Shown in pieces: positions 290 to 26,054 of a stretch of DNA of 26,722 nucleotides (within the stretch, counting starts at the first letter, position 1; every line of letters begins with the position of its first letter). The position numbers and the translations under genes are program-made. The notes beneath the pieces were generated by a model. The model was not told the DNA's origin. It saw only the letters and a program-made list of their open reading frames with translations, and made no database searches. This stretch comes from a virus. The stretch covers positions 1 through 26,722 of the IMG/VR virus record IMGVR_UViG_3300032117_000831; one strand, written 5' to 3'.

Positions 290-318
290 ATTATATTTAG
301 GTTTTTGGTAAATGTCAA
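290..318 (-). promoter_or_regulatory. Consensus sigma70-type promoter, leaderless type
   Basis: On the minus strand, TTGACA (318-313) and TATAAT (295-290) are separated by exactly 17 bases. Both hexamers match consensus perfectly. The -35 element contains the TGA stop of the upstream exonuclease gene. Only ATAGT separates the -10 element from the ATG at 284, so transcription would begin within about one base of the start codon. No ribosome-binding site is present. Confidence 0.75.
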
Positions 319-896
319 ATATTTTTTGCACTGTCTAATATACTTTCTAATTGGGCCTGCCGTTCTAGCAGTTTGAAAAACAATGCTAGGGTATTGGCCG
401 CATCAACATCCGCTCTATGTGCTTTACCTTTGAAATGCAGTTTGAAATAACCCATGGCTGACGCCAAACCTCCACTGGGTGCCTTACCACGTGTTAGCAT
501 CAAGTAAGTGTACCAGGTCTTGACATCGATCCAACGACGGCCAAAATGCGGAAAATCAGCATGGTTTTTGCTGAATTCTGACAATAATTCCACACTATCG
601 CCTCCACCCCAAGTCACTGGATTGACGAAGGTATTATGCTCTTTGATCAGTTCACTGAGCTCACGGGCAACATATTCATGGCTATAACTTTCGGCACGTA
701 TGTCTGCATCAGTTATACCTGTTAGGTCATTGATGAATTCGCTGATAGGTTCTTGTGGATCTATGAACCATTTGCGTACTATATAGTTTTCAAAGCGTGT
801 GCTCTTGTTACCTATGGCAACACCAACTTGTATTATTTTACTACTAGGTTGGTTAAGCTCTAGATCAAGAGCTAGGAAATTACTGTCAGCTATCAT
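315..896 (-). CDS. DEDDh-family 3'-5' exonuclease (RNase T / Pol III epsilon-like)
   Basis: A 193-residue protein matching the DEDDh exonuclease superfamily. Exo I is DLE at D11/E13 in a hydrophobic strand (FLALDLEL). A following loop, LTGITDADI (58-66), matches the LTGI(T) signature of the family. Exo II is probably D100 in TWGGGDSVELL, and Exo III is H160 with D165 (HRADVDAANT). The length suits a stand-alone exonuclease with no fused domain. Likely roles are trimming nucleic acid 3' ends, proofreading, or host nucleic acid turnover; the substrate cannot be read from sequence. It sits four bases after the zinc-ribbon gene, downstream of the 5' exonuclease, so two exonucleases of opposite polarity share one unit. 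Its ribosome-binding site is weak and translation is probably coupled. Confidence 0.85.
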   Translation of the reverse strand: MIADSNFLALDLELNQPSSKIIQVGVAIGNKSTRFENYIVRKWFIDPQEPISEFINDLTGITDADIRAESYSHEYVARELSELIKEHNTFVNPVTWGGGDSVELLSEFSKNHADFPHFGRRWIDVKTWYTYLMLTRGKAPSGGLASAMGYFKLHFKGKAHRADVDAANTLALFFKLLERQAQLESILDSAKNI

Positions 897-899
897 TGA

Positions 900-1016
900 T
901 TAATTCTGTCTTTCCATAGCCTCGGATATCATACAGACATTACATAATCCATACCATCTATTTTGTAATGGGGCACGACATTTGGTACACATTCCCTGCA
1001 TAGGTGTGTAGGTCAT
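900..1016 (-). CDS. 38-residue zinc-ribbon microprotein (two CxxC pairs)
   Basis: A very short gene lying exactly between the 5' exonuclease and the DEDDh exonuclease. ATG is at 1016 and TAA ends at 900, one base after the upstream stop and three bases before the downstream start. It encodes MTYTPMQGMCTKCRAPL, then a basic/aromatic linker, then CNVC and a helical tail ending ERQN. C10, C13, C25 and C28 make two CxxC knuckles spaced 11 residues apart, the layout of a minimal zinc ribbon. An AGGA ribosome-binding site lies about seven bases upstream of the ATG. Tight packing, the binding site and the four-cysteine pattern support a real gene. A nucleic-acid or protein-binding accessory role for the flanking nucleases is inference. 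Confidence 0.75.
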   Translation of the reverse strand: MTYTPMQGMCTKCRAPLQNRWYGLCNVCMISEAMERQN

Positions 1017-1017
1017 T

Positions 1018-2013
1018 TTAGGTCCTTTCTGGGTAGCCAGCAGTCAGCCATTCAGCCATGGTGCTAGCATTTTCACTGAGTTTAACGAGATCATACTTAC
1101 CACAAAACTTTAAGAACTGTGCACCAACCATTGGTTGGTTTTTAGGTACTTGGGCATTGGCAATCGTTTCTGCTATCTTAACCTTTATGTCATCTGGTTG
1201 AGCTGTCAGATCAACTAAGGTACGATTGCGTTCATAGTCATCTAATACACGATGTTCTAGGCCATTATGGTCAACCCAACGCTGTAGCATGAGATTGTTC
1301 CAATTATAGCCTTTGGTCATACGGTCAGCGAATGCTTCTTCTAAGCCAACCTTGTTCTTACTACCTTTGGTGCGCACGCCTGGAAATGCGGAAAATATAT
1401 TGTCTGTAGGATCACCACGCATACACTTTTCAAAAAGTATAAACTTAGGATCTGGAATCTTCTTAGGTTCTTTGGTCTTTTTATCTATGACAGGTTTACC
1501 TTTCTTGTCAAAGATACCCTGTAAGGTATGGAGCTCATCGCTGATACCATTGTATTGTACTACATTGTAGTCTAGTAATTGGTAAAAGTCAGTATCGCTA
1601 CTTACTACAGTATGATGATCATCTGGGTGACTGGCTATCCAGCCAGCTATCAAATCATCTGCTTCTAGTTCTGGGTGTTGTAAGACTGTGCAGTTGGTCT
1701 TTTCTGCTATAAAAGTCTTTAGAGTGTCAAAAGTTTCCCAGAATAGTCGATCTTCTTCTTGTTCACTTTCTGTCAATGCGGCACGGGCAACACTGCGATT
1801 CTTTTTATAAGGCTCGTAAAAGTCCTTGCGCCAGCTACGTCCTTCTAAACAGAATATCACATGATCAGCCTTTTGATCACGGAATGCTTTGTTCACTGAA
1901 GCTAGGGTTACGTGGATAGCAAAACCCAGCTTATCCCAAGTGTCGCTTTGACGATGTGCTGAATGTCTTGCTCTGAAAAATGTGTTGGCTGTGTCTACTA
2001 ATAGATATCTCAT
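1018..2013 (-). CDS. rnh: T4 RNase H-like 5'-3' exonuclease (FEN family)
   Basis: A 331-residue flap/5' nuclease. The acidic metal-binding residues of the FEN/PIN fold appear in order: D7 (LLVDTANTFF), E117-x-D119-D120 (ELEADDLIAG), D140-x-D142 (SSDTDFYQLL), and D201-x2-D204 (RGDPTDN) followed by a helix-hairpin-helix-like PGV. Length is close to T4 RNase H (305 residues), which removes RNA primers from lagging-strand fragments. An insertion rich in Lys and Pro (about 168-190) precedes the last acidic motif. Its ATG overlaps the upstream stop (ATGA). A perfect consensus promoter sits within the 3' end of the upstream gene, six bases from the ATG, with no Shine-Dalgarno sequence, so this gene may be expressed from a leaderless mRNA. 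Replication role is well supported by family. Confidence 0.88.
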   Translation of the reverse strand: MRYLLVDTANTFFRARHSAHRQSDTWDKLGFAIHVTLASVNKAFRDQKADHVIFCLEGRSWRKDFYEPYKKNRSVARAALTESEQEEDRLFWETFDTLKTFIAEKTNCTVLQHPELEADDLIAGWIASHPDDHHTVVSSDTDFYQLLDYNVVQYNGISDELHTLQGIFDKKGKPVIDKKTKEPKKIPDPKFILFEKCMRGDPTDNIFSAFPGVRTKGSKNKVGLEEAFADRMTKGYNWNNLMLQRWVDHNGLEHRVLDDYERNRTLVDLTAQPDDIKVKIAETIANAQVPKNQPMVGAQFLKFCGKYDLVKLSENASTMAEWLTAGYPERT

Positions 2014-4270: not shown

Positions 4271-5161
4271 TTACCATCTATTGGGTTTATTAGTTTGCCA
4301 TGTTATATTTTTACCTTGTCTAAGATCTCGATCAATATCGTCGATCCAGGCTCTAGTTTCAGCGGTGATCTTAAATTTGGGTAACACTATGTCTACATAT
4401 TCTAAATGCTCACCTGGAGTAGCATGATTGTCTATGCGATTATATTTACTTAACAGTTTACGCCAGCCCCATTTATTTTCATCGATGATTTCTCCACGCA
4501 CTTGATCAGGCACAGCACTAAAATCATTCAGTAAAAAATCATCGAACGATGGCCAATGTTCGCCAGCTACTTGTTCATACTTTTCCTGTACAGCCTCGTA
4601 GTCTTTTCTAGGAAGAAACGGTCTACTGGTAAAATCTCCGTTAAACACTAGATCATATATGCTAGGCTTGATATACTCTAAAGTATCTTTGTAGGCAGTG
4701 ATGATTTCATCCGCACGATCGATGACCATATCTTCTATTTCATCTACTTTAGTTATAGGTACTAGGCTTAAGAAATCATGTTTAACACCATAGTGCTCTA
4801 ACAGTTTCTTAGCGGCATGTATGACTGCTAGATCGCGTATTAAGTAACCACGTTCATCTGCGAATTCACGCACAAACTCTTGGCTATAACGATCCTGCGC
4901 ATAGATACTGCCTGCACCTAACCAATGACCTTTGACATATCTATCTTCACGTGCTATATTAGTCCACATGATAACGACTGTGTCCATCGGACCTAGATCG
5001 TTTTTAACTAGACATTCTATTAGAGAATTGAATATAAACTGATTACCACAACCTTGTTGTGCCCAGTTTTCAAAACTGTCGAATTCTTTACTGATTATAT
5101 CAGCCCAGGTCGGCCACTTGTAACTGGTAAAACTACAACCAAACGTGAATAGTCTATTCAC
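4271..5161 (-). CDS. SGNH/GDSL hydrolase-like protein (copy 2)
   Basis: A 296-residue protein, the longest of the SGNH set. The N-terminal block is LFTFGCSFTSYKWPTW, with the serine of GCSF (Ser10) at the nucleophile elbow. GCGNQFIFNSL (about 37-47) is the block with the oxyanion Gly/Asn, TVVIMWTN is a following core strand, and DNHATPGEHLEYVD near the C-terminus provides the His block. The middle (about 140-230) is a family-specific insertion rich in acidic and aromatic residues. GTG start at 5161 is adjacent to the queE TAG (TAGTG), so translation is probably coupled. Substrate unknown; the GCSF variant is common among phage SGNH-like proteins and may not guarantee hydrolase activity. Confidence 0.68.
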   Translation of the reverse strand: MNRLFTFGCSFTSYKWPTWADIISKEFDSFENWAQQGCGNQFIFNSLIECLVKNDLGPMDTVVIMWTNIAREDRYVKGHWLGAGSIYAQDRYSQEFVREFADERGYLIRDLAVIHAAKKLLEHYGVKHDFLSLVPITKVDEIEDMVIDRADEIITAYKDTLEYIKPSIYDLVFNGDFTSRPFLPRKDYEAVQEKYEQVAGEHWPSFDDFLLNDFSAVPDQVRGEIIDENKWGWRKLLSKYNRIDNHATPGEHLEYVDIVLPKFKITAETRAWIDDIDRDLRQGKNITWQTNKPNRW

Positions 5162-6009
5162 TACTTACCCCAACTATTACCCCATAGATCAACATGTAAT
5201 CTTGGACTGTAATAATAGCCACGCACCATGGCTTCATCAGCTACGTTAAATTTATTGCCATCATAAACACTGACTACACCACCTACTGGCATGATGTAAA
5301 CAACACCTTTGAATTTGGCTTTGCGGTATTCTGCCACAGCTCGATCGACTTCGTCAAAATCACTAGGTTTCTCAACTACAAATTTAAGATATGTTGTACC
5401 AATCTTTTCATAGCTTTTGACGATCTCAGGTTTGATAGCATCTGCCCATGCTTCACCTGATGCACTTAATTTAGCACTTACACTAAATGTAATTTCTCTA
5501 CCAGCACGATTCCATAGTTTCAAATACTTGGCAAAGTCTTCATGTAACTCTTGGGTACCATTAGTTTCAAATGTAATGTTCTTTAGGTTATACATGTCTG
5601 AGTGACTTAATAGTTCACTGTAAGCACGTTGCCATCCTAGCAATGGCTCACCACCTGTGATTACTAAATGAGTATCATTACCATTAGGCATGGTCCAGCT
5701 GTTGCTAGGAACTAGCGCCAACATCTTAGCGACTACTTCTTTAGTTTCAAGCGTAGGACTTAGATGTTTAAAGCGGGGATCCCATGACGCATAACTGTCA
5801 CAGCCTGTCGTAACCAATGGTAAGTCTTCATATTTGTTATACAATTCAACTTTGACAGCATCACGTTCTGTTGAACAAGTGCCTCTAGGCATGCCAAATC
5901 CACCACAGGTAAAGTTACAGCCAAATGTTCTTAAAAATACACTAGGAACACCTACAAAGCGTCCTTCACCTTGTGCTGAATAGAATATTTCACTTACTTT
6001 CAGTTTCAT
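5161..6009 (-). CDS. queE: 7-carboxy-7-deazaguanine synthase-like radical SAM enzyme
   Basis: 282 residues. The N-terminus is typical of QueE: VSEIFYSAQGEGRFVGVPSV then FLRTFGCNFTC. The glycine-rich SAM-binding motif TGGEPLLGWQ and the ETNGTQ strand follow. QueE rearranges 6-carboxytetrahydropterin to 7-carboxy-7-deazaguanine, the first committed deazapurine. The cluster-binding cysteines are unusual: C31 and C35 are in the normal CX3C spacing, but the residue two further on is not Cys. The likely third ligand is C70 (TGCDSYASW) after a 34-residue insertion, with C45 a less likely option. I recall cyanophage QueE proteins having the same layout. The first 20 bases overlap mazG. Upstream is a weak GGGA ribosome-binding site. 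Confidence 0.88.
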   Translation of the reverse strand: MKLKVSEIFYSAQGEGRFVGVPSVFLRTFGCNFTCGGFGMPRGTCSTERDAVKVELYNKYEDLPLVTTGCDSYASWDPRFKHLSPTLETKEVVAKMLALVPSNSWTMPNGNDTHLVITGGEPLLGWQRAYSELLSHSDMYNLKNITFETNGTQELHEDFAKYLKLWNRAGREITFSVSAKLSASGEAWADAIKPEIVKSYEKIGTTYLKFVVEKPSDFDEVDRAVAEYRKAKFKGVVYIMPVGGVVSVYDGNKFNVADEAMVRGYYYSPRLHVDLWGNSWGK

Positions 6010-9454: not shown

Positions 9455-9659
9455 TTTTCTTCTCCAAAAATGCAACGCGATTGCGTAACCATTTAACGTC
9501 TTCATATGAAGATGCTAGTTTATTTTTTGTTATTTCAAATTCTTTGCGCAGATCAGCATCAACTTGTTCGATAGTTTTTCTATTCCTGCTTTCACCCAAG
9601 TTAAGCCCAATCAATATACCAAAGAATAAGCCAACGAAAAACCAAGCGAAATCAATCAT
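9444..9659 (-). CDS. Small membrane-anchored coiled-coil protein
   Basis: 71 residues: one N-terminal transmembrane helix (FAWFFVGLFFGILIGLNLG) followed by a charged, heptad-like helix (about 26-70, ending LRNRVAFLEKKNES). This type-II single-span plus coiled-coil layout is common in small phage proteins and resembles spanin-like or membrane-tether proteins, but there is no further evidence for lysis. Its ATG overlaps the folE stop (ATGA), which supports coupled translation. Function unknown. Confidence 0.7.
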   Translation of the reverse strand: MIDFAWFFVGLFFGILIGLNLGESRNRKTIEQVDADLRKEFEITKNKLASSYEDVKWLRNRVAFLEKKNES

Positions 9660-10348
9660 CTGGGTGCAAACTCCTGTTGTAATTTAATATTGTCAAAGAA
9701 CTCTTTCTTGGTATTACCATCTTCTTTGAATGCACCTTTAAGCACAGTTGTCTGTGTTAACGAACTATGTGCCATGATGCCACGATTTTCACAGCAACCA
9801 TGTGTTGCTTGGATATACACAGCGACATTATCACTGCCTGTGGCTTTCATTATTTCTCTTGCGATGTCATTAGCAAGTTCTTCTTGTAGCGTACCGCGAC
9901 GAGCGCACCACTGAGCGATACGAGTATATTTGCTAAGTCCAATAAGTTTTTGGGCAGCGATAATCCCAATATATGCGACACCAGCAACAGGTTGATGATG
10001 ATGGCTACACATACTGCGAAGCTCACTTCTAACAACCAACATACCTTCATATCTGTCCTCACTATCATTTGGAAAAGCTGTAGCATCTGGCGCTGGATCA
10101 TAACGTCCTGCCATGATTTCATACAAGTACATTTTGGCAAGTCTACGTGCTGTGCCTTTTGAATTTGGATCTTCATGTCTATCGATGATTAAACTGTCTA
10201 GAACACCCTCAAACTTTTCTGTAAGTTCGTCTACTAGCTGTTCTCGTTCTTCGTTTTTGATATATTTTGATATATTATCACCTGCCCAGTATCTCGCACC
10301 ATCATTGCTGATACGTTCAAGTATAATATCACTGATTTTATTGCTCAT
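9656..10348 (-). CDS. folE: GTP cyclohydrolase I
   Basis: 230 residues, normal length for the family. The zinc site is C114-x2-H117 (SMCSHHHQPVAG) plus C185 (THGCCENRG). The core signature IGLSKYTRIAQWCARRGTLQEEL (136-158) matches GTP cyclohydrolase I closely. The usual CEHH is CSHH here. The enzyme opens GTP to 7,8-dihydroneopterin triphosphate, the first step to 7-deazaguanines and to folates. With queD and queE in the window, the deazaguanine route is the likely purpose. It is the first gene of its unit, with a GGAGA ribosome-binding site eight bases upstream and a strong promoter ahead. Confidence 0.95.
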   Translation of the reverse strand: MSNKISDIILERISNDGARYWAGDNISKYIKNEEREQLVDELTEKFEGVLDSLIIDRHEDPNSKGTARRLAKMYLYEIMAGRYDPAPDATAFPNDSEDRYEGMLVVRSELRSMCSHHHQPVAGVAYIGIIAAQKLIGLSKYTRIAQWCARRGTLQEELANDIAREIMKATGSDNVAVYIQATHGCCENRGIMAHSSLTQTTVLKGAFKEDGNTKKEFFDNIKLQQEFAPR

Positions 10349-18822: not shown

Positions 18823-19590
18823 TTAGTCTCCTAATATAGTATACACCATTAATGATCTTTTAGTTCTAATACCTTTGCCTAGGAAGTTATCTGCACAATG
18901 CAATTGAGTGTTATCCCAATAGAATAAACTCTTTGGCTTCCATTGGTGCCTTTGCTCAAGTGTAACACCTTCAAACCAATCATAAGGCATGTGATTTAGG
19001 TTAGCATCATACTCTTCTTTAGGTATATGATATCCAGGTACGAAGTCTTCAACTTGGCTCATATCATATGGACGACTCCAAGTGGACATATCATTACGAT
19101 CACCTACTGGGCGTTGACGTTCTTCTTCCGTCCAGCTACTTAGGAAATTACGTTGTTTGAAACTATAGGTAAATGTTTCTGGCCAATGATCAATATCGAC
19201 TGGTCCTGACATGGGTTCTACATCCATGGGAATCAGTATGACTTTATAAGGAATCTTATCTGAATACCAACGTATATCAGCATGTAGTTTCCAAGGTTCG
19301 ATAGCTTCTTGGAATGCCAAGAAGTCTGGCTTCCACCGTGGTAAAATCTCAGTGATCTTATCTTTTAAGAATGTCAATAATGGGCCTGGTCCTGATTCAA
19401 AATTAAATCCCCAATACTTGGCAACACGACCTTGTTCTGGCCATTTCTTAGTATTCATTACCAGTTTTCTACAAAAGGCGAATTCTTCATCAGTCAAGAA
19501 ATTTTCATAACAGGTACTGGTACTAGTGCTTTCTCTTAGTTTCTTTTCCTGTTCTGGCGTAAATGATTGGAATGGAGTGTAAACGTACAT
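18823..19590 (-). CDS. 2-oxoglutarate/Fe(II) oxygenase-like protein (2)
   Basis: 255 residues. The jelly-roll iron triad is H103-x-D105 (WKLHADIRWYS) and H231 (DNTQLHCADN), with R245 (RTKRSLMVYT) as the probable 2-oxoglutarate anchor. The first about 90 residues are helical, and a large insertion (about 140-210) is rich in Trp, Tyr and Pro. It should hydroxylate or oxidise an unknown substrate in the cytosol. Its ATG overlaps the TAA of the DpdA-like gene (TAATG), the closest possible coupling, with GAGGA about ten bases upstream. That linkage suggests action on the same DNA base or on the modified base, but protein or sugar substrates are equally possible. Confidence 0.72.
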   Translation of the reverse strand: MYVYTPFQSFTPEQEKKLRESTSTSTCYENFLTDEEFAFCRKLVMNTKKWPEQGRVAKYWGFNFESGPGPLLTFLKDKITEILPRWKPDFLAFQEAIEPWKLHADIRWYSDKIPYKVILIPMDVEPMSGPVDIDHWPETFTYSFKQRNFLSSWTEEERQRPVGDRNDMSTWSRPYDMSQVEDFVPGYHIPKEEYDANLNHMPYDWFEGVTLEQRHQWKPKSLFYWDNTQLHCADNFLGKGIRTKRSLMVYTILGD

Positions 19591-21119
19591 TATAGTGATT
19601 CCTCAAGTTGATTCAAGTTAGTTTCATCTAACCCACTGTCATCGACTGGGTGTTCTTCCTCTTCACTTTCAAATAAGTTGTTAAACATAGTTGACGCATT
19701 AACAGTTTTCTTACCAGTAGCACCACGTGTACCAATGATTGACATCCAGAATTTACTATGGTCTTCAATTATATTTAACGCAGTTTGTTTGTCACTGGTA
19801 GCGAATATACTATCAACTACATCTTTAAAATAAACACGATTAAATGTTTCTTGTACTAACATCTTTGGAGTTAGTCCTAGGTCATATTGGCGATTGGCTT
19901 CTTGTACTGCGGTAATATGACTCCAAACATTATGCCCCATTTGGATAGCATAACTGAAACTATCCCAAGACGTCTTACCTTCTTTACCTATCTTATTTAG
20001 GTCGCCAGGAGCATAGATACAAATATCTTTGATTAAACTTCTAGCACTAACAGGACTGTCTGTAAAGTTAGCGAATAGATTATCTTGTAGGACTGCATCA
20101 CGGAAACGACGTGAGTCTGTAGAATATTTCTTATCATCGACGCTAGGTACCATACGATATACCCATTTTTCTCTGTCAGCGATTTCTGTTTGGATATAGA
20201 TCTGTCCGTTGGCACTGGCTAAGAACGGACTAGCACAGTCAAAGCTGATAGTAAAGTTTTCATTGTGATATTTACGCACAGCACGTTGGATGTCTGTTAA
20301 CAAACAAGCCCACTCTAGTTTACTTGTGCCCAAAAAATGCATCCAATCATGTAAGCCTTTTTCTAAAAGACCATCATGACGTAATTCAACTAGGCGACGT
20401 AAGACCAAATGTACGTCACACATGTTCTGACCACCCATAGCCCAACCTTCAAATGGTTGCGCATACTGCTTGGGATCACAGTACTTCTTCATACGCTCGT
20501 ACCAGTCATCTGCATCTGCGTGATTCTCACCTTGTAGCACGTTTAAGAACTTACAAGCACCTGTACGATTCTTCATGAAGTAATCATTATTAATGTAAGT
20601 TCCTTGTACCGCTTCGATATAACTGTTGATGCCTGTCGCAGCACGACCTGCTGGACTACGAGCTACCCAAGCTGGAATATCTAAGATCATACCTCGATCC
20701 ATGTAAGCATCCATCCACGACAACACTAGCTCACGTTTCTTCTGTGCTTTAGGACAGTTAGGATTCTTCCAATCACCTTCCCATACACCTTTACCAATTT
20801 GGAAACCACCTGAGTCACCAAGTATAAAGCTACGACTACGATCTCTATTCCTGACCATATCTTCTTTGGGACTGTGTTTGTTTACATCAAGTTCTGCGTG
20901 ACCTGCTGAATACAGTGCCCATTGATAAGGAAAATATGCCGCATCTGGATTGAGCCAATTGAGTCCTTCGATACCTGTTTCAAAGTCTGAGGGAATACGT
21001 GCTGGATCTACATACTGATCAAAGCGTTGTTTGCCTACATAAGTAGCATAAAATCCACTCAATGCAGGCAAGAATACTGCATAGTCTAGTTGTTTTGCTG
21101 TTAGATTATCACGTTCCAT
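19590..21119 (-). CDS. dpdA: DpdA/TGT-like DNA deazaguanine transglycosylase
   Basis: 509 residues. TGT-fold active-site motifs appear in order: GDSGGFQ (101-107, D102), ILDIPAW (D147), LNVLQGE (193-198), GWAMGGQ (225-231) and the nucleophile region ISFDCASPF (291-299, D294). The C-terminal CxCxxC-His zinc site of tRNA-guanine transglycosylases is absent, as in phage DpdA enzymes that act on DNA. The expected reaction swaps guanine in DNA for a 7-deazaguanine base, protecting it from restriction. After about residue 470 comes a polar, acidic, probably disordered tail containing TMFNNLFE (477-484), similar to the polymerase's own C-terminal TTFDNLFTFE. This may bind the sliding clamp. It overlaps the sulfotransferase by 11 bases. 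A tRNA role cannot be fully excluded. Confidence 0.85.
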   Translation of the reverse strand: MERDNLTAKQLDYAVFLPALSGFYATYVGKQRFDQYVDPARIPSDFETGIEGLNWLNPDAAYFPYQWALYSAGHAELDVNKHSPKEDMVRNRDRSRSFILGDSGGFQIGKGVWEGDWKNPNCPKAQKKRELVLSWMDAYMDRGMILDIPAWVARSPAGRAATGINSYIEAVQGTYINNDYFMKNRTGACKFLNVLQGENHADADDWYERMKKYCDPKQYAQPFEGWAMGGQNMCDVHLVLRRLVELRHDGLLEKGLHDWMHFLGTSKLEWACLLTDIQRAVRKYHNENFTISFDCASPFLASANGQIYIQTEIADREKWVYRMVPSVDDKKYSTDSRRFRDAVLQDNLFANFTDSPVSARSLIKDICIYAPGDLNKIGKEGKTSWDSFSYAIQMGHNVWSHITAVQEANRQYDLGLTPKMLVQETFNRVYFKDVVDSIFATSDKQTALNIIEDHSKFWMSIIGTRGATGKKTVNASTMFNNLFESEEEEHPVDDSGLDETNLNQLEESL

Positions 21120-21684
21120 AAAATTTTACTCGGTTAATTAATTCATAGTCTTTCGCATAGTGTTCAGTTAATTTTAACACTAAATCCTGGTCAAAGTCAA
21201 GGATATTGGCATATTGTTTTTGTGCTTGATGATCACCAGTATTGATATTTGGTATTTGGTCGATGTCAGTGACATAATAACCATTTACTGCCATCCAAGA
21301 CTTGATATTGGTTCTTAGATTATCATCAACACGTATAAAATCACACTGTTCTAAATCTATACCTTTTAAGAAATAAGTTTGTAATTCAGTGTGATCGTCA
21401 AAAGTCCAACGATCAGTCAGTTGTTCTATAGTCAAATGTTGGTTGATAGGATTACTCATAAATTGAGTGATACCGCTGATCCAGCGTTCTAAAGGATCAC
21501 GTAGTGTAACAAGATATCTGTCAGCTTGGACGAGACTACTGCTATGCGTGAATTTTCCAGTGCTGAGCAGACAACCTTTCACAAAACTGCTGGCATTTTT
21601 TGGAATGTGAACAAAAGCGATATTTTTGTTGTTGTCAATCCAACATTCACCTAGAGCATGCCCTAGGTGTGCCCATTTATCCAT
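21109..21684 (-). CDS. Sulfotransferase-like protein
   Basis: 191 residues. The 5'-phosphosulfate-binding loop is FVHIPKNASSFVKG (24-37), and the 3'-phosphate-binding strand is YLVTLRDPLERWISG (57-71, with R62 and S70). Both match the HIPK-type sulfotransferase 2 group. The short length is near the lower end for the family. It would transfer a sulfuryl group from PAPS to a hydroxyl or amine acceptor, perhaps a sugar. Its gene starts on the clamp gene's stop (TAATG) and overlaps the DpdA-like gene by 11 bases, so it is sandwiched in a DNA-replication/modification unit. Whether the acceptor is DNA, a glycan or a small molecule cannot be read from sequence. Confidence 0.75.
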   Translation of the reverse strand: MDKWAHLGHALGECWIDNNKNIAFVHIPKNASSFVKGCLLSTGKFTHSSSLVQADRYLVTLRDPLERWISGITQFMSNPINQHLTIEQLTDRWTFDDHTELQTYFLKGIDLEQCDFIRVDDNLRTNIKSWMAVNGYYVTDIDQIPNINTGDHQAQKQYANILDFDQDLVLKLTEHYAKDYELINRVKFYGT

Positions 21685-22412
21685 TACTTGCTTTGCGCTG
21701 GTAAGATAAAGTTATATGTAGCTAATCCCGTGTCAACAGTGATCTGTGCCGCACCTTCATCTGAAATCTTAACAGTTTTATCACCTGCTAGATTTAAAAT
21801 ATTGCTTACTGCTACCACTGGCCAACTCCAACCTTTGCTTAATGTACCATTAACTCCTGATTGGAATACAAAATTACCTGCGTGACTTGAATGATCACCA
21901 AACGATAATTCTAAGTTACCATTGTTAGTCTTAGCAGTGAAATTCGCTTCTTCTGCGTTGGCACTTGCCATAAATTTTAATCTTTGGATATTAGCTACAG
22001 TTGGTTGGAATTCTACGTTCCAATTTACAGCACGCATCTTGACTGTTTTAAGTTTGTCATTGACGATCTCTTGGCTCATAAAACGATAATCGTTTTTAAA
22101 ATCACCAGCGGCATTTTCAAAATGTAAACCTACTGCTACGCTTTCACCATTGCGGTCTTGTTTGGTAATTGAAATCTTAGCATCATCTTTGTATTCTGGA
22201 ATACTTAAGATAGTGCTTAGTTTGCCTAGATTAGGCATACCAAATGTGCCAATGAATTCTGGTACTGGACCATTTAATTTCCCCTGTACGATAACTGAAC
22301 GATCTTCAGCTAGTGCTTCGATCGATGTTTCTGAATCTGTGCCTGTAATTTTGACTAGATCGATGTCCAGACCCTGTGTGTTTTTAACGATGTCTAATAA
22401 GTAATCACGCAT
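21684..22412 (-). CDS. 45: Sliding clamp, T4 gp45-like
   Basis: 242 residues (T4 gp45 is 228). The start MRDYLLDIVKNTQGLDIDLVKI, the FIGTFGMPNLGKLSTILSI strand-helix segment, and the alternating strands through the C-terminus match the two-domain gp45 fold. Gene position next to the family B polymerase supports this. The clamp encircles DNA as a trimer, tethers the polymerase, and in T4 also activates late transcription. It begins a unit with its own promoter and a strong AAGGAGA site. The downstream genes, sulfotransferase and DpdA-like enzyme, are translated immediately after it. Confidence 0.85.
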   Translation of the reverse strand: MRDYLLDIVKNTQGLDIDLVKITGTDSETSIEALAEDRSVIVQGKLNGPVPEFIGTFGMPNLGKLSTILSIPEYKDDAKISITKQDRNGESVAVGLHFENAAGDFKNDYRFMSQEIVNDKLKTVKMRAVNWNVEFQPTVANIQRLKFMASANAEEANFTAKTNNGNLELSFGDHSSHAGNFVFQSGVNGTLSKGWSWPVVAVSNILNLAGDKTVKISDEGAAQITVDTGLATYNFILPAQSK

Positions 22413-22476: not shown

Positions 22477-23397
22477 TTATTTTGGTAATATTTTACCCGC
22501 CGCCTGTTGTAATTTAACTGTATGTAATGTGCCAGGTTTACGTATTTCTGCCCAACATATATGAGTAAACACTTCATCATCGGTTGGATTATCTTCAAAT
22601 GTAACGGTTTCATACCCAACAGTGTTGATCAATAATCTTAATCTACGACCACTAGCATAACTTTTTGAGTGTGACTCAGACAGTTTGGCAATGCGATCTA
22701 GATCACAGTTATTATAGTTGAATATAAACAATCCACCTGGACGTAATAAATCCCAAACGGTTCTGAGATAATGTTCAATTTGATCAAAAGTTAAGAAATT
22801 TAAAAAATTCCATGCCAGCACAAATCCAAATTGATTCTTAGGCAGTTGATTAAAGTTATCATATAATCTCAGGCGTCTTTGATATATTTCTGGGTATGAT
22901 CCGATCATGTTTGTTAATAACGATATGTCATGATTGACGAGATACAATGGATCGCAGGCTACCATAACATCTACCCATTCTTTACTGTCAGGATAAATGT
23001 GCAGTCCAGGATAGTGCCAATCATTGTAACTACTGACTCTTTCCTTAATACGATTAGTATCAAAATGATCTAATCTATTTTGTAGATTGATAGTAGCCAA
23101 TGAAAAAGTCCTTTGGTGTTCGGGATCATGTATCAATTGATCAGCTGAACTTGTTATTTCAACATCTACATTGTCTATTATTCCACGCAATGAATCTTTG
23201 ATACTATTAACTTCTTTGTTTATGTCTTGGTACCGAGCTAATATCGGTGTGATCCCTTCACTTTGTGTTATTGGATTATCTAACTGTACTGAAGCCACTG
23301 ATGGTATTTTTTCAGCGATTACCTCGTCTAGAGACAAGCTGTTGATAGCAACAGCCAGTTCATTCCTAAACTTTACTAATTCGCTTAATGTAGCCAT
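22477..23397 (-). CDS. Class I methyltransferase-like protein with N-terminal helical domain
   Basis: 306 residues. The first about 120 residues look helical and coiled-coil-like (ILARYQDINKEVNSIKDSLRGIIDNV). The rest has a Rossmann-methyltransferase pattern: VDVMVACDPLYLVNHD (142-157), FGFVLAWNFLNFLTFDQIEHYL, and LLRPGGLFIFNYNNCD (217-232, a typical post-motif III strand). Motif I is degenerate, lacking the usual GxGxG loop, so SAM binding is less certain. The ATG overlaps the polymerase stop (TAATG) with no ribosome-binding site, implying coupled translation. Location between polymerase and clamp suggests DNA as a target, but protein or small-molecule substrates are possible. Confidence 0.65.
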   Translation of the reverse strand: MATLSELVKFRNELAVAINSLSLDEVIAEKIPSVASVQLDNPITQSEGITPILARYQDINKEVNSIKDSLRGIIDNVDVEITSSADQLIHDPEHQRTFSLATINLQNRLDHFDTNRIKERVSSYNDWHYPGLHIYPDSKEWVDVMVACDPLYLVNHDISLLTNMIGSYPEIYQRRLRLYDNFNQLPKNQFGFVLAWNFLNFLTFDQIEHYLRTVWDLLRPGGLFIFNYNNCDLDRIAKLSESHSKSYASGRRLRLLINTVGYETVTFEDNPTDDEVFTHICWAEIRKPGTLHTVKLQQAAGKILPK

Positions 23398-26054
23398 TAT
23401 TCAAAAGTAAATAGATTGTCAAATGTTGTGGCGATCTGTGTATTTTCACCGATCTTCCAATCCAATACACCTAAGAGATTTTCTACCTTTTGATCCACTA
23501 TGCCTGCTTCCATTGAATCTTGATCAAATGGTAATTCTTTAAACCATGTGGGTATATGTGTTTCATCAGTCGGATAACCGATACTGGTATATCCAAGTGG
23601 ATTATCTTTGAGTTTACATACGATGGTTTTCATACCATCAACGATAGCCATACTATAGTTATCGCCCATCATACGTTTTAAGTTGTTCCAATTCATTGCC
23701 GCACGTACATGTCCTGGCATGTTGGCTTTGCCTAGGCGTTCTTCTTCTTTAGTATACTTGGTCAAGTTGTTAACACGTTTAGGTGTACCTTTCTCCCAAG
23801 CTGGTCTTTCAGTAAATGCCAATTTAAATTCACGCACTTTATCGATGACTGCTTCTTTACCAGTACCTGTAAGCACATCAAGTAGTATTTCACTTAAGAA
23901 ATCTTGTATGACTTTAGGAGTATCACTACGTTTTAAATCTAGTCCCATGGCTTTTACTTTGCCTGGAGTACCATGGCTGTCTAAACGTTTACCTTCCATG
24001 TCATAGATCAACACGGCATAACGTTTTTTCTTGATAAACAAGCCTTTGAGTGCTACTAGTTCACGTCCACCTTTGATCAATTCACCTTGTCGACGCGGAG
24101 TATGGAAAGCACGTTCACAGAACTGTGGAAAACTTTCATTGACCTGATCAGCGATGCTGTCATATAAACCTACTGCTATGTCTTTGTTCCATTCCATCTT
24201 ACCCGCTTCTACATCAGTCTTGACCATTGGCCAAGCTGAGAAGTAACATGAGTCAGTGTCACCATAGATGATCGCTTCACCTACGTGATCATATTTGCCC
24301 GTGATACATTCATTTATATATGCATCCATATGTCGAGCGATAGTCCGACCAGTAAGTGTAGTTGACTGCCCAATACGTTTGTCAAAGAAACGACAGCCCG
24401 GATTTAAGATAGCACCATACAAGCTGTTAAGATTAATTTTCTTAACCAATTGTCGTTTGTCCCAGAATGCTTTGTCTTCATCTGTAGTTGCTTCTTTCTT
24501 TTTAGCCTGCATTTCTTGTCGTTCAGCATACCAACGTTCTAGCAAGCCGGGTATAACCCCTTTGCGTTCATTGTTGAAAATAGTTCCGTTGGCTGATAGG
24601 ATCCAAGGTTTATTGCTATCAAATATCAATCGCCAAACATCTGCGGCACTGAGTACATCACTGGTGCCGTTAGCCCAATCAATGGTTATCTCAGTACCTG
24701 GTTCCATGTTCATCACACTGGTATATTCTAAACTACCAAACATGTTTTCCCATGCGTCAGCAAAACTACTGCCTGCTGTCATCTTTTCTTTGATATAATA
24801 TTCTGTCATCACAGGACGTAGCTGTCCTATGATAGTTTCTGGACCCATGTTCAGTGCGCGAATAGCTGAGGGATACAGTGAGTTAATGTCGATAGCACCA
24901 ATGTAATCGTGCATGCCTGCTTTAGGCGTCGCTACATACGCACCTGCGGCCTGTGTGTCAAACTGTTCATCTCTGTTACGATTTGGTACTACCATACCCA
25001 GTTGATGTGCTTCGTTGATGATGGCCTGTTCTGTAACTGCCACAGCACCCATTGTTGTCTGTAACAATACAGTATTATCATGTGCCAATTCATTGGCTAG
25101 ATCCAAGAAGCGTAGTTTCTTATCTAGTTTTGCTAACAAGGCAGTATCTTGTCTGTTATACTCAATGAACTTGGGAAAGTCTTGATTGTATAATTGATCC
25201 AGCGTACCTTCATATTGTGTTTTACGTTCATCTAATTCATATTCAGCGATAGCATCTAATGAATATGAATGGCGTTCTTCATAGGTATATTTGCGATACA
25301 GTTGCATATAGTCCATGTGTACACGACCAATCAAGTCAAATGTCATATTAGCCGCACCAAAGCGTTCAAACTCACGCTGTTTAGGGAATTGACCCCATAA
25401 GCAGAATCTGCGTGTGTCGTCTTTGCTCAGCACACGATTAGTACGCTGTACCATATATGGAATGTCGAAACCTTCTGAGTTCCAACCTGACAGTATGTCG
25501 GCATCATCGATCAAATCCAAGAACGTTTTAAGTAAATCTTCTTCACGTTCCATAAGGAAACAGTTGTCGTACTTGCTGGCTATCTCTTCTGCTGTTTCCC
25601 AGCTCATGCTCTTAGGGGGAATCACCATGGTAACTAATTTATCTAGCCAATCTAGATATACTGACACCGCGGTGATTGGATTGAACGGATCTTCTGGTTT
25701 ACTGAAACCTCTGACAGGATCAAAGTCTACCTCAATGTCGAAGAATGCTGTTTGTAATTTGGGGGACTTCTGTCCTAGATAGTTTTCTTCTAAGCAACGG
25801 AACACGGGATTGATGTCACTTTCCCAGATACGTTTGCCCGAATTGATTTTAAGTTCTTTGTGGAACTCTTTGCCTATGCGTGTTGAGAATCTTGATACAG
25901 GTGTGTCGTAGATCGTGCGGAACTTACCACGAGGATCGTCGTAGTAAAATGTATAACTTGCGGGATATTCTCTATATTCTCTTTGACCGTTGACTCGCTC
26001 AACAATATAGATACGATCTTTTGTTCGATCGAACAGTGCGTCTACATAACTCAT
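23397..26054 (-). CDS. 43: Family B DNA polymerase, T4 gp43-like
   Basis: 885 residues (T4 gp43 is 898). Exonuclease motifs are AFFDIEVDFD (D106, E108), GWNSEGFD (D197) and YNRQDTALL (D303). Polymerase motifs are AIDINSLYPSAIR (D389), KKINLNSLYG (K538-G547) and IIYGDTDSCYF (D599, D601). All catalytic acids are present, so both proofreading and synthesis should work. The C-terminal TTFDNLFTFE resembles the clamp-binding peptide of T4-type polymerases, and the clamp is encoded two genes away. No intein or split is visible. The start has AAAAAGGAAAAAG upstream and lies in its own unit with the methyltransferase-like gene. Confidence 0.97.
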   Translation of the reverse strand: MSYVDALFDRTKDRIYIVERVNGQREYREYPASYTFYYDDPRGKFRTIYDTPVSRFSTRIGKEFHKELKINSGKRIWESDINPVFRCLEENYLGQKSPKLQTAFFDIEVDFDPVRGFSKPEDPFNPITAVSVYLDWLDKLVTMVIPPKSMSWETAEEIASKYDNCFLMEREEDLLKTFLDLIDDADILSGWNSEGFDIPYMVQRTNRVLSKDDTRRFCLWGQFPKQREFERFGAANMTFDLIGRVHMDYMQLYRKYTYEERHSYSLDAIAEYELDERKTQYEGTLDQLYNQDFPKFIEYNRQDTALLAKLDKKLRFLDLANELAHDNTVLLQTTMGAVAVTEQAIINEAHQLGMVVPNRNRDEQFDTQAAGAYVATPKAGMHDYIGAIDINSLYPSAIRALNMGPETIIGQLRPVMTEYYIKEKMTAGSSFADAWENMFGSLEYTSVMNMEPGTEITIDWANGTSDVLSAADVWRLIFDSNKPWILSANGTIFNNERKGVIPGLLERWYAERQEMQAKKKEATTDEDKAFWDKRQLVKKINLNSLYGAILNPGCRFFDKRIGQSTTLTGRTIARHMDAYINECITGKYDHVGEAIIYGDTDSCYFSAWPMVKTDVEAGKMEWNKDIAVGLYDSIADQVNESFPQFCERAFHTPRRQGELIKGGRELVALKGLFIKKKRYAVLIYDMEGKRLDSHGTPGKVKAMGLDLKRSDTPKVIQDFLSEILLDVLTGTGKEAVIDKVREFKLAFTERPAWEKGTPKRVNNLTKYTKEEERLGKANMPGHVRAAMNWNNLKRMMGDNYSMAIVDGMKTIVCKLKDNPLGYTSIGYPTDETHIPTWFKELPFDQDSMEAGIVDQKVENLLGVLDWKIGENTQIATTFDNLFTFE

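Follow-up and report, generated by a model that had tools for sequence, protein, structure and literature searches.

The window, as we call the whole stretch of DNA that was analysed, is a virus record of 26,722 bases, and on its minus strand a 5' exonuclease gene, an ORF of 38 amino acids and a 3' exonuclease gene follow one another in this order (Table 1). Translation of the ORF gives MTYTPMQGMCTKCRAPLQNRWYGLCNVCMISEAMERQN followed by a stop codon, and places the cysteines at residues 10, 13, 25 and 28, that is, in two CxxC motifs (10-13 and 25-28), as a sequence-only reading of this DNA had described. The same reading held that the ORF fits its gap to within three bases on each side; the distances measured are one base upstream, where base 1017 alone parts the ATG from the stop codon of the 5' exonuclease gene (1018-1020), and three bases downstream (897-899), between the stop codon (900-902) and the ATG of the 3' exonuclease gene (894-896). 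We refer to the space between the two exonuclease genes as the slot, and to the C4 zinc-finger proteins encoded in it as ribbons. Relatives of the 5' exonuclease in phage records carry the annotation RNase H. In Pseudomonas phage 30-3, Klebsiella phage RaK2 and Escherichia phage 121Q a gene annotated as a hypothetical protein of 152-161 aa follows the 5' exonuclease relative, and in the region viewed no annotated 3' exonuclease lies near it.

Table 1. Genes and candidate ribosome-binding sites at the exonuclease slot (positions in the window)
Feature	Position	Strand	Basis
5' exonuclease resembling T4 RNase H; flanks the slot upstream	1018..2013	-	Pfam PF02739 5_3_exonuc_N, E 1.2e-19; PHROG 107, E 1.5e-38
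GAAAGGA, likely ribosome-binding site of the microprotein gene	1023..1029	-	By reading, inferred; 6 bases 5' of the ATG, within the final codons of the 5' exonuclease gene
Microprotein gene, 38 aa, with a C4 zinc finger (ribbon or knuckle); slot-family member consisting of the ribbon only	900..1016	-	Cysteine motif and family profile
GGAAAGA, possible ribosome-binding site for the 3' exonuclease gene	909..915	-	By reading, inferred; 12 bases 5' of the ATG (long spacing), within the final codons of the microprotein gene
3' exonuclease of RNase_T or DnaQ-like type; flanks the slot downstream	315..896	-	Pfam PF00929 RNase_T, E 4.5e-11; PHROG 192, E 1.2e-17

No other ORF of 30-130 aa that runs from start to stop codon in the window has the pattern CxxC-x(9-13)-CxxC. 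When the window was subjected to 100 dinucleotide shuffles, the same motif appeared in a mean of 0.14 ORFs and in one at most; the motif by itself is therefore mildly unusual. An ORF that occupies the gap by chance would be in keeping with this frequency, given that C4-motif ORFs are not extremely rare, but the cysteines and the position are kept in 16 distinct slot proteins, and these homologues largely refute such an origin, which we regard as very improbable.

The homologues come from environmental phage contigs, gathered with both exonucleases of the window and with one exonuclease gene from each of two relatives. The best 80 relatives were taken from at least 599, at least 113 and at least 532 in three of these scans, and all 67 in the fourth; since three scans took the best 80, the junction counts given below describe the sampled loci and not all phages. 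A first family profile, built from six slot ribbons spotted by their motif, recovered from the collected loci the same six and 10 more, that is 16 distinct proteins including that of the window (E 0.016 or below), and the next match was background (E 0.09). Every one of the 16 is encoded between the 5' and the 3' exonuclease genes on the same strand, as in the window, and in all of them four invariant cysteines form the motif CxxC-x(10-12)-CxxC near the N-terminus. Each member was then withheld together with its close kin and ranked against 12,987 distinct background ORFs, and all 16 came out at rank 1. The similarity of the window protein to the family thus extends beyond the cysteines, although it is the weakest and most divergent of the 16 in this test and its margin is small (E 1.1e-4; 21.4 bits, versus 17.6 for the top background ORF). 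The 16 proteins are not equally independent, given that two of them, L205 and L237, differ by one residue.

Scans seeded with the ribbons themselves, which carry no bias towards the slot, returned 21 loci (19 plus L222 and L162), four of them on contigs not already in the sample, and both nucleases flanked the ribbon in every case. When the ribbon profile was run on 28 virus records, 20 had one strong copy each, one of these with a weak second match (E 0.06), and the eight that lack a ribbon in the slot had none elsewhere by this search. A complete tailed member of the family (L047; see below) found as a query three loci only, all with the identical protein, and therefore its close relatives are few. 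The exact 38-aa form was otherwise seen on just two contigs, which over 3.4-4.2 kb share 99.9% identity with the window. Judged from these sequences, the family is one of real accessory microproteins, so far seen solely in the nuclease slot. The 38-aa ORF is probably a real gene, and it is its conservation across the slot proteins, not the motif, that argues strongly for this. The earlier description of an overlooked, probably coding C4 microprotein in the tight space between 5' and 3' exonuclease genes is borne out.

No name for the family was found in the sources searched. Pfam, NCBIfam, PHROGs and PADLOC gave at most weak matches to the 16 members, and PADLOC none; the top ones were NCBIfam aMBF1 (E 0.0016, one member), PHROG 34374 (E 0.0027, two members) and Pfam DUF7129 (E 0.0064, three members), and for the window protein NCBIfam GntX (E 0.0085; 15.6 bits, with a cut-off of 304) and Pfam Zn_ribbon_LapB (E 0.023). 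Three family queries against 50,697 phage records produced no convincing match: the window protein hit three records at E 3-4, which we judge to be chance, and two tailed members hit none at E 1. In the PDB sequences the best match of the core profile was a GATA-1 finger (E 0.047). The best hit of the core model in a Foldseek structural search was not significant (E 0.45), a VIA comparison of the same model reached at best Z 2.8, with a ribosome chain of Pyrococcus furiosus (Z 2 or higher for 16 of the 76 chains), and the model of a tailed member, L190, compared with viral models gave E 0.74 at best. In the literature searches no title or abstract start among the matches listed points to the slot or the ribbon family. 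Nothing in these libraries was significant enough to identify the family.

Most members are longer than the window protein. In 14 of the 16, which measure 98-147 aa, the ribbon is followed by a linker that varies and by a hydrophobic tail at the C-terminus; 12 of the 14 tails exceed 1.6 in 19-residue hydropathy, and those of L190 and L167 stay below the usual threshold (1.33 and 1.45). The tail is a putative membrane anchor. The tail-less members are the window protein, the smallest found, which has neither linker nor tail and a peak 19-residue hydropathy of 0.18, and the 76-aa protein of L043. The model of the window core is of moderate confidence (mean pLDDT 74.7, pTM 0.41) and has a C-terminal helix from residue 26; together with the C4 pattern it is consistent with a predicted single zinc on the four cysteines. 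The model of the tailed L190 protein (mean pLDDT 71.9, pTM 0.34) also has a helix after the second knuckle, followed by a linker predicted with low confidence and, at the C-terminus, by a long helix predicted with confidence (block pLDDT 74-95).

The lengths raise the question of whether a stop codon arose in a tailed gene and left its 5' part, a 38-aa product without a function of its own. The window protein ends at residue 38 where most members go on to a tail, and the family profile matches it less well than any other member, as such decay would predict, but its stop codon lies three bases before the next gene with no residual linker or tail DNA, its four cysteines are all retained, and L043 provides a second tail-less member; we therefore consider a decaying remnant unlikely.

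Tails were also found without a ribbon. The 53-aa slot proteins of L193 (1872-2033), L196 and L197, which are two distinct proteins, are recognised by the tail profile at E 5.6e-6 to 2.5e-5 (the next match, unrelated, has E 0.71) and have a DYNLNW stretch in common with the tails of L190 and L167. Two other small slot ORFs with a hydrophobic helix, in L199 (54 aa) and L201 (36 aa), gave no match to the tail profile. These data suggest that the ribbon head and the tail exist both fused and separate, and the link to the tail-only proteins is suggestive because profiles of hydrophobic sequences are biased by composition. The accessory status of the gene, the linker and putative membrane anchor of most members and the tail-only slot proteins are points that go beyond the sequence-only reading.

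The size of the family members and their single C4 site followed by a helix recall TraR and DksA, that is, small phage-encoded proteins such as phage lambda Orf73 and its relatives, and the similarity in sequence and structure is weak. TraR homologues combine an N-terminal DxxDxA helix with a CxxC-17-CxxC arrangement (PMC9239242). The window protein has nine residues before the first cysteine and no DxxDxA helix, its CxxC spacing is 11 instead of 17, and most slot-family members carry a hydrophobic tail; given the motif and the spacing, a TraR reading of the window protein was dropped. Among the structural neighbours of the core model, ribosome chains rank at the top, with DksA and TraR chains below them: the six best Foldseek neighbours are all ribosome chains, 14-32% identical to the core over 31-38 columns and none of them significant. 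The top ribosome chains (small-subunit chains N or n, unnamed in the output) are presumably uS14, going by the chain letters. At E 0.001 the window contains no match to Pfam Ribosomal_S14 (PF00253), and the control was found in 14 of 14 genomes. A broader version of this likeness, in which the knuckle and helix would reprogram the host by docking on its RNA polymerase or on the small subunit of the ribosome, could draw on these neighbours and on PHROG 54 (DksA-like), which weakly matches four of the 16 members (best E 0.037). Nevertheless, all the structural matches are non-significant (Foldseek E at least 0.45, VIA Z not above 2.8), the TraR helix and spacing are missing from the 38-aa protein and a Ribosomal_S14 match from the window, and we hold such mimicry to be quite improbable.

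Other resemblances concern the motif or the size. The Pfam double zinc ribbons DZR_2 and DZR also have two CxxC knuckles and match six and three of the 16 members, in all cases weakly (best E 0.022 and 0.028; DZR_2 reaches 15 bits in L062, with a curated cut-off of 27). NinF-family proteins, which are small phage proteins, are found among the structural neighbours of the tailed L190 model, with E-values of 1.1 and 3.2 that do not support homology. By size and motif, the nearest experimentally studied analogues that we found are archaeal zinc-finger micro-proteins (PMC10716476): the C(P)XCG micro-proteins of Haloferax volcanii are stand-alone proteins of fewer than 70 aa with two CxxC-type motifs, and one of them, the zinc-finger protein HVO_0758, requires all four cysteines for folding. 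These are products of archaeal cellular genes, and the glycine of C(P)XCG is missing after either knuckle of the window protein (CTKC-R, CNVC-M).

The distribution of the ribbon was examined in 296 sequences, of which 26 had no 3' exonuclease match and two were cut; the remaining 268 represent 104 distinct junctions. The two nuclease genes touch (gap of 20 bases or fewer) in 68 of these, a ribbon is present in 17, among them the window and its near-copy L001, and 19 have another insert. The expectation that relatives would have the same gene with its cysteines at this locus therefore held for the cysteines, invariant wherever the ribbon occurs, and not for the gene, which most sampled junctions lack. 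On a tree of both nucleases obtained by a quick search, which covers 97 of the 104 junctions and 16 of the 17 with a ribbon, short or cut sequences having been left out, the ribbon label changes at least 11 times, eight of them forced by well-supported branches. This is fewer changes than in any of 500 shuffles, yet still at least 11, and therefore the ribbon is clustered but has been gained or lost repeatedly. The 'tail only' class of this tree, five junctions, was set by gap length, and the tail profile backs three of them (L193, L196 and L197). L190 and L192 form a clean, precise cassette-like pair: before the slot they are 96.9% identical over 3.5 kb, and beyond it 92.6% identical over 0.6 kb. 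L190 carries the ribbon gene behind the upstream ribosome-binding-like sequence, with another such sequence between the ribbon gene and the 3' exonuclease gene, and the slot of L192 is empty.

Ribbon and nuclease sequences also follow each other loosely. The window and L045 have nucleases that are 89% and 92% identical and ribbon cores that are 30% identical, and for L045 and L162 the ribbon cores are 70% identical and the nucleases 80% and 72%. Over all pairs, which are not independent of one another, the identities of ribbon and 5' exonuclease are weakly correlated (Spearman 0.19, p 0.055). The decoupling is incomplete, as the closest ribbon pairs (L205/L237/L222 and L190/L167) also have the closest nucleases; beyond these pairs, nuclease similarity hardly predicts ribbon similarity. 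In six of the eight pairs compared, those with dS below 1.2, which overlap and involve the longer members, dN/dS was 0.07-0.36, and the other two pairs are saturated; close pairs of the longer members are thus shown to be under purifying selection.

These results bear on the claim that the microprotein is a partner of the nucleases, a zinc finger that would bind one or both exonucleases, or their DNA or RNA substrate, and tune their activity, with the tailed relatives bringing the nucleases to the membrane. All family members found lie between both nuclease genes and share one orientation, and most are closely spaced from their neighbours, which is what such a partner would lead one to expect, and this was the explanation considered first. 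It was downgraded because the ribbon is to a large extent uncoupled from the nucleases in both presence and sequence, as the many junctions with both nucleases and no insert and the weak correlation of identities indicate; in addition, unrelated and tail-only proteins occupy the same slot. A nuclease partner is in our judgement doubtful. The loose relation between ribbon and nuclease similarity, together with the L190/L192 pair, argues against a dedicated nuclease subunit and fits an accessory cassette that is swapped.

The account that we prefer, and to which we give an even chance, is that the ORF is expressed as an accessory gene, the smallest found of a family seen only in the slot, which would encode a zinc-bearing docking head carried on a swapped cassette and aimed at the host rather than at the nucleases. 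According to this account the four cysteines would hold one zinc and so give a compact knuckle followed by a helix, and in the reducing cytoplasm this head may dock onto a protein or a nucleic acid. In most members the linker and hydrophobic helix would anchor the head to the inner membrane; the head-only form of the window phage would be soluble. The cassette could pass from one related phage to another by recombination in the conserved nuclease genes on either side and, by borrowing the ribosome-binding site of the upstream gene, would be made with the nuclease operon. As docking target, a host component, in takeover or counter-defence, would be likelier than the flanking nucleases. It is typical of host-directed phage accessory genes to be patchily distributed, to be exchanged and to turn over in sequence. 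Small host-reprogramming phage proteins are the subject of a review (PMC11323111).

The modules are found apart, as head only in the window and as tail only in L193, L196 and L197, and fused in other members. A more specific and tentative proposal is that the slot is, in a group of uncultured phages, a swap site for a two-module anti-host factor made of a cytoplasmic C4 head and a membrane anchor, for which the conserved nuclease genes would act as recombination arms, and that phages tether, free or omit the head according to the host. What the present analysis adds is a family of zinc-finger proteins of very small size, nameless in the libraries searched, and it shows the junction of two conserved nuclease genes to be an exchange site for accessory genes. 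The pair of phages with and without the gene, along with the head-only, tail-only and fused forms, makes the function testable by simple comparison, and should the target prove to be a defence of the host or its transcription, the slot would serve to mark further genes of this kind.

Some of the other inserts are of a different nature. In L166 the slot encodes a tail-less CxxC...CxC protein of 52 aa, perhaps an independent version of the zinc finger or a degenerate one. Look-alike proteins of 176-182 aa occupy the slots of L164, L169, L184, L030, L127 and L234, and those of L164 and L030 had no PHROG match at E 0.01. In L160, L235, L236 and L254 the slot protein measures 262-301 aa and bears RLFTFGCS close to its start, and the product of 4271-5161 in the window, by reading, begins much like them; therefore one gene type seems to be mobile in these genomes. 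Neither this window protein nor that of L160 matched a PHROG.

Elsewhere in the window, 23397-26054 encodes a family B DNA polymerase and 21684-22412 a possible sliding clamp, which matches PHROG 12062, of unknown function, at E 6.4e-36 and PHROG 223, a processivity factor, at E 0.0034. A QueE-like radical SAM protein (PHROG 2076, E 9e-54) is encoded at 5161-6009 and a GTP cyclohydrolase I (Pfam, E 1.4e-39) at 9656-10348. The protein encoded at 19590-21119, which had no match in the Pfam, PHROGs or PDB searches, has a DSGGFQ stretch by which we take it to resemble a DpdA-type transglycosylase. The QueE-like protein, the GTP cyclohydrolase I and this DpdA-type candidate hint at 7-deazaguanine modification of the DNA.
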